This document shows, piece by piece, positions 45,695 through 53,720 of a stretch of DNA of 64,000 nt. The translations under genes were made by a program, and so were the position numbers. Numbering within the stretch: the stretch's first letter is position 1; each line of letters begins with the position of its first letter. The notes beneath the pieces were generated by a model. It searched no databases, was not told where the DNA came from, and was given only the letters and a program-made list of their open reading frames with translations. The DNA is from Catenuloplanes indicus (lineage in GTDB: Bacteria > Actinomycetota > Actinomycetes > Mycobacteriales > Micromonosporaceae): the NCBI RefSeq assembly GCF_030813715.1, contig NZ_JAUSUZ010000001.1, positions 1,240,001 through 1,304,000 of the forward strand. Direction: 5' to 3'.

Positions 45695-46426
45695 ATGATG
45701 CTCGCCTGCGAGGCACGTGACCTGGTCAAGGTCTACGGCCGCGGCGACACCGCGGTGCGTGCGCTGGACGGTGTGACGGTAGGGTTCCCCCGCGCCGAGT
45801 TCACCGCGATCATGGGCCCGTCGGGTTCCGGGAAGTCGACGCTGATGCACTGCCTGGCCGGCCTGGACCGCGCGACCAGCGGCGCGGTCATGCTCGGCGA
45901 CGTGGACCTGACCCGCCAGTCCGACAAGGTGCTGACCAAGGTCCGCCGGGAACGGATCGGGTTCGTCTTCCAGGCGTTCAACCTGCTGCCGCAGCTGACC
46001 GCGGCACAGAACATCACGCTCCCGCTCGACCTCTCCGGCACCAAGCCCGACCCGGCCCTGTTCGGCCGCCTCGTCGACGTGCTCGGCCTGCGCGACCGCC
46101 TCAAGCACCGCCCGAGCGAACTCTCCGGCGGCCAGCAGCAGCGCGTCGCCCTGGCCCGCGCGCTCGTCTCCCGCCCGGAGGCGGTCTTCGCGGACGAGCC
46201 GACCGGCAACCTCGACTCCCGCACCGGCGCCGAGGTGCTGTCCTTCCTGCGCAACGCGGTCCGCGAGTACGGCCAGACCGTCGTCATGGTCACCCACGAC
46301 CCGGTCGCGGCCTCCTACGCCGACCGCGTGATCATGCTCGCCGACGGCCGGATCTCCGGCGAGATCCTGCACCCGACCCGCGAGTCCGTCACCGACGCGC
46401 TGCACCAGCTGGCCGGTGCCCGATGA
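45695..46426 (+). CDS. ABC transporter ATP-binding protein, MacB/LolD type
   Basis: A 243-residue ATPase with Walker A ([10 protein letters not shown] near 45), Q-loop ([14 protein letters not shown]), signature ([15 protein letters not shown]), Walker B ([13 protein letters not shown]) and switch His (VTHDP). The [10 protein letters not shown] and EPTGNLDS segments are typical for partners of FtsX-like permeases. It starts at ATG 45695 (ATGATG) and ends in an ATGA overlap with the permease gene. Its divergent two-component system suggests inducible export or membrane-stress defence. Confidence 0.94.
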
Positions 46427-48987
46427 CCGTGCTGCGCACCCAGCTCGCCGGCCTCGCCCGCCGCCCCGCCCGGCTGCTGCTCACCGGCCTCGCACTCATC
46501 GTCGCCGCCACGGTCGTGTTCGGCACCGTGCTCGCCCAGCGGATCACGTACCAGACCATCCTGGACACGTTCAGCGGTACGTCCGCGGCCGCCGACCTGG
46601 TGGTCGGCAACGAGGCCTCGGCCACCTCGGCGGCGCTGGCCATCGTCCGGCAGACCGCGGGCGTCGAGTCGGCCACGGCCCGCAACAGCGCCTACTACGA
46701 CGTGCCGTCGCTGCCCGGCGGATACCTGGTGATCACCGGCGACCCCGGCTCCGGGCCACTGTCCGAGGTGACGCTGACGTCCGGGACGTACCCGACCGCG
46801 GAGAACCAGATCGCGGTCACCACGCGCACCGCCGAGCGGATGGGCCTCACCGCGGGCCGGACCGTGGTGGTGCGACTCGGCCCGGACGCGCCGGAGCGCA
46901 CGCTCACCGTGACCGGCATCGTGTCGCCGCTGCGCGGCGAGGGCTTCGCCGGCACCGCGTACACCAGCGGCGACCTGGTCACCGCGATGTCCACCGCAGA
47001 CGTCCCGGTCTACGAGGAATCCGGCCTCGGCCGCGTCGAGGTGCACCTCGCGGACGGCGCCAGCGTCGAGGCGGTGACCCGGGAGCTGAACCGCACACTG
47101 CCGCAGGTGGTCAACCCGATGGGCGACGGCGTCGCGAAGAAGCAGCTGGACGTGCGGAACGGCGCCGAGGTGCGCAAGCAGGAGGCACTCGATGCGGCCT
47201 CCTCGATGGACGAGCTGTTCTTCCTGGTCTCCATCTTCGTCGCGATCGCGGCCGCCGCGGCCGCGCTGGTCGCCACGTCCACGTTCCGGATCGTGTTCGC
47301 GCAGCGGATGAAGCAGCTCGCGCTGCTCCGCGCGGTCGGTGCCGGACGCGGCCCGCTGACCCGGGCGCTGATCGTCGAGGGCGCGCTCACCGGCGCGGTC
47401 GCGGGCGTCACCGGCGTACTGACCGCGTACGCGCTCGGCCTCGCCGCCGGCCCGGCCGCGCGCGTCTTCCTCGACGTGCCGCTCGCCCTGCCCGGCCTGC
47501 CGATCGTGCCCGCGATCCTGGTCGTGGCCGGCACCACGATCGTCGCGATCATCGCGGTCCTCTCCCCCGCGGTCACCGCGGCCCGCGTCTCGCCGCTGGA
47601 GGCGCTGCGCTCCGCGGCCGTCACCGGCGCCAGCGCGCGGCTCGGCGTACTCCGCTGGATCCTCGGTCTGCTCCTGACCCTCGCGTCGCTGGCACTGGTC
47701 GCGTTCGCGGTGGCCAACCTGCCGGAGCCGAACACGCCGAGCGAGACCGGCGAGACCGTCATGCTCGCCACCGTCGCCGGCGGCACGCTGAGCTTCTTCG
47801 CGCTGATCGTGCTCGGGCCGGCGATCCTCCGCCCGGTGCTGTGGCTGGTCGGCCAGCCACTGCGCGCGTTCGGACCGACCGGACGGCTCGCGATCGGCGG
47901 CGTCGGCGGCGCACCGAAGCGCGCCGCGGCGGTCAGCGTGGTGGTGGCGCTCGCGGTCACGATGATCGCCGGTGCGCTGGTCGCGCTCTCCACCGCGCGC
48001 GCCGCCATGGACCAGCAACTCGCGCTGATGGCCCCGGCCGACCTGCAGATCTCCGCGGAGGCCGGTCAGGCGCTGCCGGCCGGAGCGGTGGACGCCGCGC
48101 GCGCCCACCCGGCGCTGCGCGACATCGTCCCGTACCGGCTCACCGAGGCGGACATCCCGGTGGAGGGCGACCGGGAGGACCCGAACGCGCACTCGCCGGT
48201 GCTCGACCTGTCCCTGACCTCGCTGCGCACCGCCAAGGACATCCAGGTCACCGAGGGTACGCTGGACGCGCTCGGCCCCGGCAAGATCATCGCGCTGGAC
48301 TACCTCGGTGACTTCACCGCGCTCGGCATCGGCGAGACCGCCACGATCACCCGCGACGGCAAGACGGTCACCGGCACCGTCGTAGCCACCGTCGCCGGGC
48401 TGCCGATGGACGCGTGGGCCGTGCTCGACCCGGCCGACATGACCGCGCTCGGCCTCCCGCCGTCCCCGACCGGCGTGCTGGCCGACGCGGCCGGCGACCG
48501 GACCACGGCGTACCAGGCCGCCCAGACGCTCGCCCCCGGCGGCGGCGTCAGCGTGCTCGCCGACCAGCGCGACGACTACGCCGAGCAGCTGGTGGTGCTC
48601 ACGGTCGTGGCGCTCGGCCTGGTCGGCATGACGGTCTCGGTCGCGGTCGTCGGCGTCGGCACCACCACCGCGCTCTCCGTGGTGGAACGGCTCCGCGAGG
48701 CCGGGCTGCTCCGCGCCGTGGGCATGTCCCGCGGCCGGCTGCGCGCCACGCTGCTGATCGAGGCATCACTGTACGGCGTGGTGGGCTCGCTGCTCGGGCT
48801 GGCGCTGGCCGTACCGTTCGCGTCGCTGATGCTGAGCGGGGTCGGGCTGGACGGGCCGATCACGCTGCCGTGGGGGCAGCTGGCGCTGGTGGTGCTGGTG
48901 CTGGGGCTGCTGACCGCAGCCTCCGGCGTGCTCCCGGCCCGCCGCGCGTCCCGGGTCGCGCCGACCGCGGCCCTGGCGATGGACTGA
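46423..48987 (+). CDS. FtsX-like ABC transporter permease
   Basis: An 854-residue membrane protein. One N-terminal TM segment (about 18-38) precedes a large extracytoplasmic domain (MacB_PCD-like, 45-255). The first FtsX bundle (about 262-400) follows, then a second extracytoplasmic domain and the second FtsX bundle (about 715-845). The repeated LRAVGAGRGPLTRAL and LRAVGMSRGRLRATLL coupling segments mark the two halves. This layout is usual for actinomycete FtsX permeases that work with a MacB-type ATPase in extrusion of peptides or lipophilic compounds. A strong terminator follows 18 bp after the stop. Confidence 0.93.
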   Translation: MTVLRTQLAGLARRPARLLLTGLALIVAATVVFGTVLAQRITYQTILDTFSGTSAAADLVVGNEASATSAALAIVRQTAGVESATARNSAYYDVPSLPGGYLVITGDPGSGPLSEVTLTSGTYPTAENQIAVTTRTAERMGLTAGRTVVVRLGPDAPERTLTVTGIVSPLRGEGFAGTAYTSGDLVTAMSTADVPVYEESGLGRVEVHLADGASVEAVTRELNRTLPQVVNPMGDGVAKKQLDVRNGAEVRKQEALDAASSMDELFFLVSIFVAIAAAAAALVATSTFRIVFAQRMKQLALLRAVGAGRGPLTRALIVEGALTGAVAGVTGVLTAYALGLAAGPAARVFLDVPLALPGLPIVPAILVVAGTTIVAIIAVLSPAVTAARVSPLEALRSAAVTGASARLGVLRWILGLLLTLASLALVAFAVANLPEPNTPSETGETVMLATVAGGTLSFFALIVLGPAILRPVLWLVGQPLRAFGPTGRLAIGGVGGAPKRAAAVSVVVALAVTMIAGALVALSTARAAMDQQLALMAPADLQISAEAGQALPAGAVDAARAHPALRDIVPYRLTEADIPVEGDREDPNAHSPVLDLSLTSLRTAKDIQVTEGTLDALGPGKIIALDYLGDFTALGIGETATITRDGKTVTGTVVATVAGLPMDAWAVLDPADMTALGLPPSPTGVLADAAGDRTTAYQAAQTLAPGGGVSVLADQRDDYAEQLVVLTVVALGLVGMTVSVAVVGVGTTTALSVVERLREAGLLRAVGMSRGRLRATLLIEASLYGVVGSLLGLALAVPFASLMLSGVGLDGPITLPWGQLALVVLVLGLLTAASGVLPARRASRVAPTAALAMD

Positions 48988-49004
48988 TCCTCGGAGGTAG
49001 GGGC

Positions 49005-49039
49005 AGGACGGGGCCCCGCGGTTCGCGGGGCCCCGTCCT
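49005..49039. terminator. Strong bidirectional terminator hairpin
   Basis: AGGACGGGGCCCCGCG (49005-49020) and CGCGGGGCCCCGTCCT (49024-49039) are perfect complements over a 3-base loop. It lies between the convergent stops at 48987 and 49065. Confidence 0.85.
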
Positions 49040-49064
49040 GGCGTTCATGGCTTCGTCCGCGCGT

Positions 49065-49484
49065 TCAGCGCGGTGGCGGCTGCACCCGGGTCATCGGCAC
49101 ACCGGCCTTCCGGCAGGAGTGCTCCGCGCCCATCAGCAGGACCGCGCCGCGCATCCCGTCGATCGGGCGCTCCGGGTCGTCCTCCTGCTGGCCGAGCTGG
49201 AACACCTCGCCGATGCGGGTGAGGTCGTCATGGCCGGAGGCGGCCAGTTGGTCCGCCAGTCTCCGCGCCTCGGTGCTGGAGACCTCGGGACGGCCACCGG
49301 CCACGAACTCCCTGGTGAACTCGTCGATCCGGCGGCAGGCCAGGACACCGGGATCCTCGTGGGTGGCGACGTGGACCGCGGCAACGGCCGCGGCCGGCAC
49401 CGCCACGGCCATGGCTAGCGTCGCCGCGAGGACGACCGGTCGCTTCCGGCGCGGTGCGGGCGGTCCGGCGCTGGGTGTGGTGAT
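49065..49484 (-). CDS. Small single-TM protein, paralogue 1, apparent ATC start
   Basis: A 139-residue protein if read from ATC 49484. The region just upstream has a normal GAGGAG site, and the context GCCGTCATCACC equals the GCCGTCATGACC start of paralogue 3 except for ATG to ATC. There is no ATG or GTG before the membrane segment (VVLAATLAMAVAVPAAAVAA). After the TM segment come an acidic exported part with ACRRIDEFTREF, SSTEARRLADQLAASGHDD and AEHSCRKAGVP. Paralogue 2 shows the same order (CHRIDQLGMDLA, LTPDELDEIADDLAGSENDV). It starts 11 bp after paralogue 2. Either ATC is used as a rare start or the gene has lost its start. Confidence 0.65.
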   Translation of the reverse strand: MTTPSAGPPAPRRKRPVVLAATLAMAVAVPAAAVAAVHVATHEDPGVLACRRIDEFTREFVAGGRPEVSSTEARRLADQLAASGHDDLTRIGEVFQLGQQEDDPERPIDGMRGAVLLMGAEHSCRKAGVPMTRVQPPPR

Positions 49485-49495
49485 GACGGCTCTCC

Positions 49496-49921
49496 TCAGT
49501 TCGATGTCGCCATGTCGACGCCCGCCACCACGCAGGCCGGGAGGGCCTGGGTGTGGAGGTGGAGCGTGCCCTGGGCGCCCCTGAACCGCTCCGGCTCCCC
49601 GGCGAGCGCCCACCGCAGGTATTCGAGGCCGAAGTGCGACAGCACGTCGTTCTCCGAACCCGCGAGGTCGTCGGCTATCTCGTCCAGCTCGTCGGGTGTG
49701 AGGACCGGACGAGCGCCCTCCGCGAGGTCCATGCCGAGCTGGTCGATCCGGTGGCAGGCGGCGATCCCGGAATCGCGCGGCGTACTGAGGTAAACGGCGA
49801 GCGCGACACCGGCGGCGAGCACGGCGACCGCCGCGATCGCGGCGATGATGATGATCGACCGGTGCCGGCGCACCGACGGGGCGGCACCGGTGTCGGCAGT
49901 GGACGGATGAGTAGGTGGCAT
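49496..49921 (-). CDS. Small single-TM protein, paralogue 2
   Basis: A 141-residue protein from ATG 49921, which has an AAGGAGA site 7 bp upstream; an ATG at 49945 has none. A short Pro/Thr-rich cytoplasmic head precedes one TM segment (SIIIIAAIAAVAVLAAGVAL, about 25-44). The exported domain carries two cysteines (ACHRIDQ and LPACVVAG) and a helical LTPDELDEIADDLAGSENDV segment. It shares this layout with paralogues 1 and 3. I recognise no named family. Just upstream lies a copied fragment of the gene end found before paralogue 3. Confidence 0.72.
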   Translation of the reverse strand: MPPTHPSTADTGAAPSVRRHRSIIIIAAIAAVAVLAAGVALAVYLSTPRDSGIAACHRIDQLGMDLAEGARPVLTPDELDEIADDLAGSENDVLSHFGLEYLRWALAGEPERFRGAQGTLHLHTQALPACVVAGVDMATSN

Positions 49922-49941
49922 GCGTCTTCTCCTTGGTCGAC

Positions 49942-49976
49942 GCATTATTCAGTGATCTTGCAGCGGTCGTACAGCG
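49942..49976 (-). repeat. Duplicated 3' gene fragment (KITE-stop), copy 1
   Basis: On the minus strand this stretch reads ALYDRCKITE and a TAA stop, matching SLYAASKITE plus TAA at 51041-51075. In this copy no open frame extends upstream beyond a TAG near 50038, so it is a remnant. It marks the edge of a duplicated segment. Confidence 0.75.
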
Positions 49977-49996
49977 CGTTTTGATCTCGATGACCA

Positions 49997-50032
49997 CGAA
50001 GGGAGTCCGGCGAACTCGCCGGACTCCCTTCG
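49997..50032 (-). terminator. Hairpin terminator after paralogue 3
   Basis: CGAAGGGAGTCCGGCGA (49997-50013) pairs with TCGCCGGACTCCCTTCG (50016-50032). It stands 5 bp downstream of the stop of the 50038 gene on the minus strand. Confidence 0.8.
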
Positions 50033-50037
50033 TTCCT

Positions 50038-51036
50038 CTACTGAGGAGGCTCGAACGATACCCAGATCCAGGTGTCGCCGCAGGCCTCGTGGGTCGCGTC
50101 GATGAGCGCGCGGGCCGCGGCCGGGCCCTGGACCCACGTGGCCGCCTCCGGGTCGACCGGACCCAGGACGATGCTGCCCGGATCCGTCCCGCCGTAGGCC
50201 ATCTCGACCGCGATCAGGTAGTCACGGCCGACCGCGGCAAGGGTGTCGTTGTTCGACGCGGCCAGGTCCGCGGCGATGCTCACCGTGTGGAGCGGCCGGA
50301 TGTTCGGCCGCCCGGACTCGGCGATCTCCTTGATGGCCACACAGCCGTCCGAGGCCTTCTCGTCCGCGAAGAGCACAGCCACACCCGCGACGACGTTCAA
50401 CACCAGCCCTGTCACCACAGCAATGATCAGCCACGGGTTCCGCCAGGGATTCGGCCGCGGCTGCCCGGGATTGGCCGGCACGAAATAGCCGGGCGGCGCG
50501 ACCGGCGGCGACATCGGGCCGTGCGGCCCGCCGAAGACGGGCGTCCCGGGCGGGGGCATGTACGCCCCGGCACCGGCCGGGGCGCCGTACGCCGCTACCG
50601 GAGCCGAGGGGGCGGCCACCGGTGCCGCCTCGGCTCGCGGCGCGGACGGCGCCGGATCGTGCGCGGGCCCATCAGACGATGCAGCGCCCGGCGACGCAAC
50701 GGCGGACGAGACGGCGCCGGAAGCCGGGCTGCCGGTGGCGGCGGATGGTGACGTGGCATCCACAGAGGATGACGGCGTAGCATCGCCCGCCGGAACTCCC
50801 GGCACGCGGGCGGCCTCCGGGTCCGGTTGCGGCGCCGCCGGGCCGGCGGCGGCATGACCGGCCACGATGGGCGGTGTGGTCACGCCGGCCGGAACGAGGT
50901 CTGCGGTATCGCGAGCCGCGACCGGCGACACGGTGACGTCGGCCGGGACCGGCCCCGCGGTGTCGCGATCCTCGGGTGTACAGGTGGCGTCCGGCGGCGG
51001 CTCGGACTGTTGCGGAGAAACGCCAGGCGCGGTCAT
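50038..51036 (-). CDS. Single-TM protein with long Pro/Ala-rich head, paralogue 3
   Basis: A 332-residue protein from ATG 51036. Residues 1-195 are a low-complexity cytoplasmic region rich in Pro, Ala, Val and Ser, ending in PPVAPPGYFVPANPGQPRPN. One TM segment follows (WLIIAVVTGLVLNVVAGVAV, about 207-226). The exported domain has two cysteines (DGCVAIKEIAE and HEACGDTW) and the ADLAASNNDTLAAVGRDYL helix that matches the paralogues. Heads of this sort occur in many actinomycete envelope proteins of unknown role. The start is only 7 bp after the stop of the small gene at 51044, so they are likely one operon. Confidence 0.8.
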   Translation of the reverse strand: MTAPGVSPQQSEPPPDATCTPEDRDTAGPVPADVTVSPVAARDTADLVPAGVTTPPIVAGHAAAGPAAPQPDPEAARVPGVPAGDATPSSSVDATSPSAATGSPASGAVSSAVASPGAASSDGPAHDPAPSAPRAEAAPVAAPSAPVAAYGAPAGAGAYMPPPGTPVFGGPHGPMSPPVAPPGYFVPANPGQPRPNPWRNPWLIIAVVTGLVLNVVAGVAVLFADEKASDGCVAIKEIAESGRPNIRPLHTVSIAADLAASNNDTLAAVGRDYLIAVEMAYGGTDPGSIVLGPVDPEAATWVQGPAAARALIDATHEACGDTWIWVSFEPPQ

Positions 51037-51040
51037 GACG

Positions 51041-51075
51041 GCATTATTCAGTGATCTTGGATGCGGCGTACAGCG
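51041..51075 (-). repeat. 3' gene end (KITE-stop), copy 2
   Basis: This is the parent-like copy of the fragment at 49942. It encodes SLYAASKITE and a TAA stop as the end of the small gene at 51044. The GCATTATTCAGTGATCTTG block is identical in both. Confidence 0.75.
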
Positions 51076-51253
51076 ACTTCCGCCGGAACCACATGATCCG
51101 GCGGGCGCCCTCGGCGGACCACTCATCGGGACCAGGCCACTCCCGCGGTAGGTCTTTCGCATCGTGGCTGTCGGCGGGCCGGCGGCCGAGGCGACGGTGA
51201 CGACGCCTGGGATTGTGGGTATCCCTGGGCTTGACGTCGGCGCGGACCGTCAT
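51044..51253 (-). CDS. Small basic hypothetical protein
   Basis: A 69-residue protein if started at ATG 51253. The first half is Arg-rich and may be non-coding; the second half (GPDEWSAEGARRIMWFRRKS, then LYAASKITE) looks like a real protein end. Support for translation comes from the duplicated copy at 49942, in which the same C-terminal frame and stop are preserved. It lies 7 bp upstream of the paralogue 3 start. No family is recognised. Confidence 0.45.
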   Translation of the reverse strand: MTVRADVKPRDTHNPRRRHRRLGRRPADSHDAKDLPREWPGPDEWSAEGARRIMWFRRKSLYAASKITE

Positions 51254-52172
51254 CGACCTGTAGGGCCGCCGGGCCGCACCGGCCAGCGACCCCACCGGCC
51301 CGGCGAGCGCCGGCGGTCCCGACAGCCCGGCATTGTGGGCGCTCCGGCGGCCCCATGGGCTGCAACGGCGCGGCTGGCTCCAGCCGCCCCACGGTCCCGG
51401 ACCTCAGCGGCTCCTACGCCGCTGTGGCCGTCCGCCCCAGCCGCCGGCCGTCACCGCAGGAGCGTGCGGATTCCGGAAGATTCGATGAGCGGACCCGCAT
51501 GGCGCGAGGTACGGAGCGCTTCACCGGACGCCGGCGATCTCCGGTCGCCGGGTGCACACCCTGACCACCCGACCGCTCCACCCCGTCGACCGCCCTGGGC
51601 CGAGCCCAGAGGCACCGGTTCCGCACCGGCCGCGGACCGCGACCGGTCCTTGAACACGCGCCTTCCGCCGGCGGGCCGGAACCCGGTGGTGCGGCCGATG
51701 ACCGCCTCCGAGACGAGACCGGGTGGGACGACCCGCGAAGCCTCGGATCGAGGCCGCGCCGAGAGTTCCCGCCTCCGCGACCCGCCCCGGCGGGGCAGTG
51801 CGGGCGGGTTTGGGTGGCCGAGGCAACAAAAACAGGGTGGTTTGCAGCGGAGAACGGCGGGGAAAGGGGGCGTGATTCCGGGCTCCGGCTCCCGGATCGT
51901 GGGGCAGAGCGAGGATGTTGATCACTTTATGGGCTCGACATGATCACTTTGCGTGAGTTCGCCTGCGCGGTTTCGTACCGTTATATCTTGATTTTTGGGG
52001 CTTTAGCGGCTGGGACGAAGGGCTATAGCACACGCCGACTACCGAATTGTTACAAGCGGCGGTCGCGCGGGATCTTGCGAAACGTGTTCGCCTTGAAATA
52101 AGTTCCTCCCCGCAACAAATGCACATCAGCTGATGAAGACCTCCCGGAGGCAACCATGACGGTCGTGAGGCC
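51254..52172. other. Spacer of 0.9 kb ahead of the sugar ABC operon
   Basis: No convincing gene; open readings on both strands are Arg/Pro-rich and lack starts with ribosome sites. The right end (51910-52172) is much richer in A and T and should hold the promoter and control sites for the operon at 52173, including the repeat at 51919 and a GGAGG near 52145. An odd ATG-containing mini-frame just before 52173 may be part of the leader. Confidence 0.55.
51919..51950 (+). promoter_or_regulatory. TGATCACTTT direct repeat
   Basis: TGATCACTTT occurs at 51919-51928 and 51941-51950, 22 bp apart, so both copies lie on the same face of the helix. Each contains the palindrome TGATCA. They sit about 220-250 bp upstream of the sugar transporter operon and could be activator or repressor sites. 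Confidence 0.5.
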
Positions 52173-53720
52173 ATGAGCAGTGCCCCGGTCCTGCTTGAGA
52201 TGCGTGCGATCACCAAGGAGTTCCCTGGTGTGAAAGCGCTCTCCGACGTCTCGCTGCGCGTGCGGGCGGGCGAGATCCACGCGATCTGCGGCGAGAACGG
52301 CGCCGGCAAGTCGACGCTGATGAAGGTGCTCAGCGGCGTCTACCCGTACGGGTCCTACGACGGGCAGATCGTCTACCAGGGCTCCGAGGTGAAGTTCGGG
52401 GACATCCGGGCCAGCGAGAACGCGGGCATCGTGATCATCCACCAGGAGCTCGCGCTGATCCCGCTCATGTCGATCACCGAGAACCTGTTCCTCGGCAACG
52501 AGCCGAAGAAGAACGGCGCGATCGACTGGAAGGCGGCGCAGCTGCGGGCGACCGAGCTGATGGCCCGCGTCGGTCTGGACGAGAACCCGGACACGCTGGT
52601 CAAGGACCTCGGCGTCGGCAAGCAGCAGCTCATCGAGATCGCCAAGGCGTTCGCGAAGAACGTGAAGCTGCTGATCCTGGACGAGCCGACCGCGGCGCTG
52701 AACGAGAACGACTCCCAGCACCTGCTGGACCTGCTGCGCGGCTTCCGGGAGCGCGGCATCACCTCGATCATCATCTCGCACAAGCTGAACGAGATCGAGG
52801 CGATCGCGGACTCCATCACGATCATCCGGGACGGCAAGAGCGTCGAGACGCTGGACGTCAAGGCGGACGGCGTGGACGAGGACCGGATCGTGCGCGGCAT
52901 GGTCGGCCGCGAGCTGACCAACCGCTACCCGGACCACACGCCGAAGATCGGCGAGGTCTTCTTCGAGGTGCGCGACTGGACCGTGCGGCACCCGATCTCC
53001 ACGGAGCGCCTGGTGGCCAAGGGTTCCAGCTTCACGGTGCGGCGCGGTGAGATCGTCGGGTTCGCCGGGCTGATGGGCGCGGGCCGCACCGAGCTGGCGA
53101 TGAGCATCTTCGGCCGGTCGTACGGCGTCTACGAGCGCGGCGAGATCTGGAAGGACGGGAAGCGGATCGAGATCAAGACGGTCTCGGACGCGATCCACCA
53201 CGGTCTGGCCTACGTCAGCGAGGACCGCAAGGCCGTCGGGCTCAACCTGCTCGACGACATCAAGACCTCCACGGTCTCGGCGAAGCTCTCCAAGATCCGC
53301 AAGTTCCTGAAGCTGGACGAGGTCGCCGAGTACAAGGCGGCCGAGGGCTACCGGCAGAGCCTGCGGATCAAGACGCCGACCGTGGACGAGGGCGTCAACA
53401 AGCTCTCCGGCGGCAACCAGCAGAAGGTCGTCCTGGCGAAGTGGATGTTCACCGACCCGGACCTGCTGATCCTGGACGAGCCCACCCGCGGCATCGACGT
53501 GGGCGCGAAGTACGAGATCTACGGCATCATCCAGCAGCTCGCGGACCAGGGTAAGGGCGTCATCGTCATCTCCTCGGAGCTGCCCGAGCTGCTCGGCCTC
53601 TGCGACCGCATCTACACCGTGTTCGAGGGCTCCATCACCGGCGTCATCGACCGGGCCGACGCGACCCAGGAAAACCTCATGAAGCAGATGACCTCCAACA
53701 AGAAGATGCAGACGCGATGA
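52173..53720 (+). CDS. mmsA: Multiple-sugar ABC transporter ATPase, MmsA/GguA type
   Basis: A 515-residue protein with two fused ATPase domains, as in RbsA/XylG/MmsA. Domain 1 has Walker [13 protein letters not shown] (near 37-48) and [15 protein letters not shown]. Domain 2 has the degenerate P-loop [11 protein letters not shown] (near 300), signature [15 protein letters not shown] and [14 protein letters not shown]. The [20 protein letters not shown] and [10 protein letters not shown]-like segments place it in the MmsA/GguA group that imports several monosaccharides (xylose, arabinose, galactose). First gene of a three-gene operon; ATGA overlap with the permease gene. Confidence 0.92.

Follow-up and report, generated by a model that had tools for sequence, protein, structure and literature searches.

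Three neighbouring genes on the minus strand of a 64,000-nucleotide stretch of the Catenuloplanes indicus genome, the whole of which is called the window here, raise three questions: whether they are copies of one gene, how they are expressed, and what their products could do. They are called A, B and C here. Our preferred reading, to which we give as a whole a probability of about 0.5, is that they encode paralogous membrane-tethered modules, that they form two transcription units, that the last of them is translated from an AUC codon, and that the exported domains have a binding role. The parts of this reading differ in strength and are graded below where each is discussed.

Organization of the three genes

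Gene A (50038..51036, minus strand) was defined by its open reading frame and translation and encodes 332 aa, with a long Pro/Ala-rich head, a transmembrane segment (TM) and an exported two-cysteine domain. It is followed on the same strand by gene B (49496..49921; ORF of 141 aa), which has a short head and a TM and carries Cys56 and Cys130 in its exported domain, and by gene C (49065..49484), whose product has 139 aa if its start is the ATC at 49484-49482 and carries the exported cysteines Cys50 and Cys124. The hydropathy profile placed the TM, all on the minus strand, at residues 203-223 of A (50368..50430; peak 2.70 over 21 residues), 23-43 of B (49793..49855; peak 2.99) and 17-37 of C (49374..49436; peak 2.40). 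The heads thus measured 202, 22 and 16 residues. The exported part was about 95-110 residues in size, and that of A (50041..50367, minus strand) contained Cys232 and Cys319. The original prediction, made from the letters of the DNA, had described three adjoining genes with a head, a TM and an exported two-cysteine domain, and this architecture was confirmed by hydropathy and cysteine positions; the head lengths it had given, about 20 to 195 residues, were close to those measured. The array does lie inside the extent proposed for it (49065-51253), but 51037-51253 falls outside A, whose ATG is at 51036.

The array, in a genome of 9.2 Mb, faces an ABC exporter permease gene (46423-48987) in convergent orientation, and on its other side a sugar ABC operon (52173 onwards) is transcribed divergently from it. 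A terminator-like hairpin with a perfect 17-bp stem was found directly 3' of A (49996..50033, minus strand; RNA fold -38.1 kcal/mol, z -8.0). A second hairpin, also of 17 bp, lies where C and the permease gene meet tail to tail (49004..49040; minus-strand fold z -4.8, plus-strand -3.9). The T-run is absent from both, which is why neither was listed by the terminator pattern scanner. An Rfam search of 48500-52500 gave no match.

Paralogy of A, B and C

A sequence search of the genome gave a clear match between B and C (38% identity, E 6e-15) and revealed additional copies of the family elsewhere in the same genome. The place of A was examined separately, as the match between A and B in such a single-sequence search was marginal (E 0.0014), and as A differs from the other members in length and in the region after the TM, where it is without their EDSG-V-x-AC motif. 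These differences, together with the failure of a structure model for A, could be taken to mean that A shares no ancestry with B and C and merely resembles them in composition, in having one TM and in having two cysteines. However, a profile made from ten relatives without A retrieved A at E 3.3e-7, and a profile-profile comparison of A with the B/C family, TM included, gave a probability of 97.9 (E 4e-13). The profile search with the exported domain that had been suggested as a check was run free of the TM; a profile built without A recovered the exported domain of A at E 1e-5, the best of 2000 shuffles being 0.1. Local alignments free of the TM reached z values of 18 for B-C, 10 for A-B and 7 for A-C, and for each pair none of 1000 shuffles was as good. 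The same promoter-like element also stands in front of A and B. On the strength of the TM-free profile, the profile-profile match and the shuffle tests, A, B and C are paralogues, B and C clearly and A distantly, and we regard a separate origin of A as very improbable.

The three genes had been proposed to arise by segmental duplication. A trace of this survives at the DNA level in the 33-bp promoter-like element, but nothing else in the three genes came up as a direct copy in a DNA self-search. As this element alone is still duplicated in the DNA and the sequences flanking A and B are at background identity, the duplications are old.

Range of the family

In an alignment of A, B and C with 20 further rows from several genera, a single TM preceded an exported domain in every member, and the Cys, Gly and Cys found there in that order were invariant in all 23 rows. 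A profile of these rows matched 106 of 346 Micromonosporaceae genomes at E<=0.001. Since many of those matches were short and covered the TM only, relatives were counted by hand at E<=1e-9, which gave 70 of the 346 genomes and 10 of 42 genera. A draw of 396 genomes from the phylum yielded 25 matches at E<=0.001, comprising the genome of the window itself, G007 from the same family and 23 genomes outside Micromonosporaceae; the best of these 23 had E 9.8e-6, and most were confined to the TM (model positions 1-50). G048, a Micromonosporaceae member of the draw, had no match. The protein family has so far been seen only in Micromonosporaceae in this sample. A genome scan with a peptide pattern, which was narrow, returned a single locus.

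No family fitting A, B or C was found in Pfam, NCBIfam, PHROGs or PADLOC, in agreement with the prediction that they belong to no named family, and the same was true of ten relatives searched against Pfam and six against NCBIfam. The best PDB match by sequence profile (E 0.019) began in the TM region. The DUF732-type proteins, which we take to be small secreted helical proteins with two cysteines and which were tried as a lead, were absent among the Pfam matches to A, B and C at E up to 10. With NF038083 (CU044_5270), curated cut-off 100, B scored 20 bits, C scored 7.4 and A gave no match. A literature search on conserved signature proteins of Micromonosporaceae, the protein family having no name to search by, found no paper. 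A, B and C almost certainly belong to a family of single-pass membrane proteins as yet without a name, and this would define an envelope protein family that is missing from Pfam and NCBIfam and occurs in about one fifth of the sampled genomes of Micromonosporaceae, a group rich in antibiotic producers. Two relatives (L083, 5692-6426; L097, 5990-6721) carried a second, similar C-terminal domain with cysteines, for which no Pfam family was found.

The locus in other Catenuloplanes genomes

Each of the five genomes of the genus (G000-G004, the window lying in G000) has this locus between the same flanking operons. The genes of G001-G004 were taken from our own codon-usage caller and from stop-to-stop frames, with no standard gene finder, and the caller misses long low-complexity heads. 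G003 has A-B-C at the locus. At the G004 locus A and C are present, but an internal deletion has left only the start and end of B, out of frame. A lone C-type gene occupies the locus in G001, and a lone A-type gene in G002, which carries a C-type gene on another contig. Orthologues of A were assigned in G003, G004 and, distantly, in G002, that of B in G003 (65% identity) and those of C in G003, G004 and G001. In the match table of the 346 Micromonosporaceae genomes, read by eye, no two adjoining family genes were seen outside Catenuloplanes; two nearby fragments in a g4 genome appear to be parts of a single broken gene. The small expanding array that had been predicted is half confirmed: it was seen only in the genus of the window, where it both grows and shrinks.

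A tree was built from 53 rows, of which the 15 belonging to the genus fell on one side of a branch with support of 79/30; 14 of them, leaving out a divergent copy E, grouped at 89/70, and A grouped with B at 82/70. Because the tool warned of long branches and the key nodes were weakly supported, we used the tree as weak support only for duplication inside the genus. The dN/dS values were about 0.35-0.57 for the orthologues of A and C and 0.74 for those of B. The orthologues of all three genes are under moderate purifying selection, and the values mark them as real, fast-evolving genes. In A the heads evolve fastest: between orthologues the head is 48-50% and the core 70-76% identical, and the heads up to the NPGQPR motif have 156, 188 and 277 residues.

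Tandem repeats were found at this locus in G003 (L039, 7904-8042, 9213-9401 and 7137-7264), with units of 24-27 bp in the A-B gap and downstream of C, and units of 15, 27 and 42 bp within the head of A; they may explain the changes in head length. The D paralogues of the family (L044 in G003, L045 in G004 and L046 in G000) are conserved, have a TGCATAAT box 7 nt before a leaderless-looking GTG start, and in each of these genomes lie near a very long ORF (1066-1153 aa).

A promoter-like element shared by two probable transcription units

A bipartite element of 33 bp, CTGTAC-N8-CAAGATCACTGAATAATGC, occurs twice in the array on the minus strand, in front of A (51041..51073) and in front of B-C (49942..49974). 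Allowing up to 3 mismatches, the five Catenuloplanes genomes contained six matches, all of them exact, two each in G000, G003 and G004. The 25 fixed positions were identical in all six copies and all 8 spacer positions varied. The reversed pattern, used as a control, had no match in the five genomes. The 100 bp upstream were 0.52-0.67 identical between species, where shuffles gave a mean of 0.52 and a maximum of 0.59; the highest value, 0.67 for the B copy between G000 and G004, is somewhat above background. Parts of the element are kept at the reduced loci, namely CAAGATCACTG before the sole array gene of G001, with the remainder absent, and CTGTAC with a GATCGCTGATAATGC variant in G002. The second copy is intact in G004 despite the broken B, consistent with a promoter now driving C.

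We infer that the element acts as a promoter. The ATG of A lies 6 nt after the TAAT of the first copy and no Shine-Dalgarno sequence is seen, so that the A transcript would be leaderless; gene B has a good Shine-Dalgarno sequence, AAGGAG. A sigma-70 scan of the region found no promoter, and a housekeeping promoter is therefore unsupported. A search for a wider regulon in the genome of the window, with 16 bases at 2 mismatches, returned only one weak extra site (C1:3112322). We are fairly confident that A alone and B-C form two co-regulated transcription units, which are probably made together since both begin at the same conserved element. The array could serve as a test case for what reads an element that is fixed at 25 positions while its surroundings drift.

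Translation start of C

No ATG, GTG or TTG is present at the expected start of C. A proposed ribosome site is found here instead, AGGAG followed after 7 nt by ATC (49482..49496, minus strand), overlapping the stop codon of B. The arrangement AGGAG-7 nt-ATC-ACC-ACA-CCC is kept in G000, G003 (L039) and G004 (L040), the distance from the ATC to the TM varies by whole codons between orthologues, and the C-type gene of G001 has ATG-ACT at the corresponding position. Read from the ATC, C has an I/M-T-T-P N-terminus, and the family mostly begins with [M/V]-T-x-P. A [M/V]T start with a ribosome site was counted by hand in 20 of 38 rows from outside Catenuloplanes; the automatic choice of starts had failed for some rows, including A and C. 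These features make it likely that C is translated from AUC, while a CTG that overlaps the B stop codon could be an alternative start.

AUC is a weak start codon, and C is for that reason probably made weakly. Gene finders limited to ATG, GTG and TTG would cut C within its membrane anchor or miss it altogether. The gene offers a test case for whether selection can keep a near-cognate AUC start in high-GC bacteria. AUC has been used as the start codon of GFP in E. coli (PMC8299109).

A further possibility, which we hold only tentatively, is that the array works as a regulon of its own with two units. The element found only here would be read by a dedicated regulator or sigma factor, a selected AUC start would hold the last gene low and make it sensitive to initiation factors, and both devices together would set the ratio of the three tethered domains.

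Topology, fold and possible role of the products

In the 15 residues before the TM, A, B and C have 2, 3 and 4 Lys/Arg and 0, 1 and 0 Asp/Glu, respectively, which is a positive-inside pattern. This pattern, together with the position of the cysteines beyond the TM, predicts that the head is cytoplasmic and that the C-terminal domain lies outside. The exported part of C was modelled with pLDDT mostly 82-92, dipping to 67-70 around residues 101-120, and with helices at 45-61, 70-81, 86-101 and 110-126, so that it is modelled as a four-helix bundle; the TM and head were below 50. For a comparison of folds across the array, C was modelled well and A poorly, the single-sequence model of A (pLDDT 49) being uninformative. 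The invariant cysteines lie directly behind the TM and close to the end, and most likely pair in a disulfide linking the first helix to the last. Fold searches with the C model gave a best E of 0.81 in Foldseek and a best Z of 7.8 in VIA, to an ESCRT helical bundle; these matches are within the chance range for helical bundles and were rejected.

Tethered to the membrane, the exported bundle would bind a partner in the envelope or serve as its adaptor, and the fast-varying head would be merely a flexible cytoplasmic tether. That the products are such disulfide-held helical modules binding a partner is our guess at their role, and it is offered as a possibility rather than as the expected outcome. 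An all-against-all comparison of the neighbourhoods of relatives found no common neighbour gene across genera, the recurrent neighbours reflecting synteny within a genus.

The original prediction had suggested a sensor or adhesion set and had proposed a linkage to ABC exporters as a check; neither gained positive support. The products could be sensors or anti-sigma-like regulators, which would sense a signal in the envelope through the exported domain and pass it on through the head. The topology permits this, B has a sub-threshold match to CU044_5270 (E 5e-4), and one relative matched the anti-sigma model NF052375 at E 0.0016 (18.4 bits, cut-off 100). However, these matches cover the head and TM or little more and include no regulatory domain, and Pfam found no anti-sigma domain in the heads of A, B and C. 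The heads are only 16-22 residues long in B and C, and that of A is of low complexity and unconserved between orthologues; a signalling domain is lacking from them, and the exported part is small. No sigma factor or kinase accompanies the relatives across genera, a sigma-factor-like gene in genus g29 being a synteny neighbour in three loci. We therefore consider a sensor role unlikely.

A somewhat less likely role still is that of accessory subunits of the adjoining ABC exporter with its two-component system. The exporter, the kinase and regulator genes and the sugar ABC operon do flank the locus in five of the five genus genomes. The array is, however, convergent with the exporter and separated from it by a strong hairpin, and G001 and G002 keep the exporter while their array is a single gene. 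Moreover, the linkage is not conserved across genera, as a homologue of the neighbouring permease was found in none of 20 fetched loci with relatives (one of which, L098, is from G003, the same genus, at a different place). Surface adhesins, which would likewise be exported, paralogous and rapidly varying, are highly improbable, as the exported part, with only about 95-110 residues, has no wall-binding or sorting domain found by Pfam and sits at the membrane, below a thick wall, and as it is the cytoplasmic head, not the outer domain, that varies most. Membrane-tethered modules that bind an envelope partner thus remain the role we prefer.

Comparison with known systems

Proteins of NCBIfam NF038083 (CU044_5270) are, like those of the array, TM proteins, and B matches this model over residues 13-74; the match is, however, mainly to the TM region and far below the cut-off. 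In its proposed start, C can be compared with infC-type genes, which use a non-AUG near-cognate start, AUU. The AUC of C would likewise be near-cognate, but C is not a translation factor, and its start was read from sequence. The closest likeness is to other unnamed single-pass proteins of Micromonosporaceae (such as L080, L082 and L088, with EDSG-V-x-AC after the TM), which have the same succession of head, TM and two-cysteine helical exported domain and often a [M/V]T..P N-terminus, as is proposed for C. These relatives are single genes in unrelated contexts, whereas the array, the common element and the putative AUC start occur only in the genus of the window.
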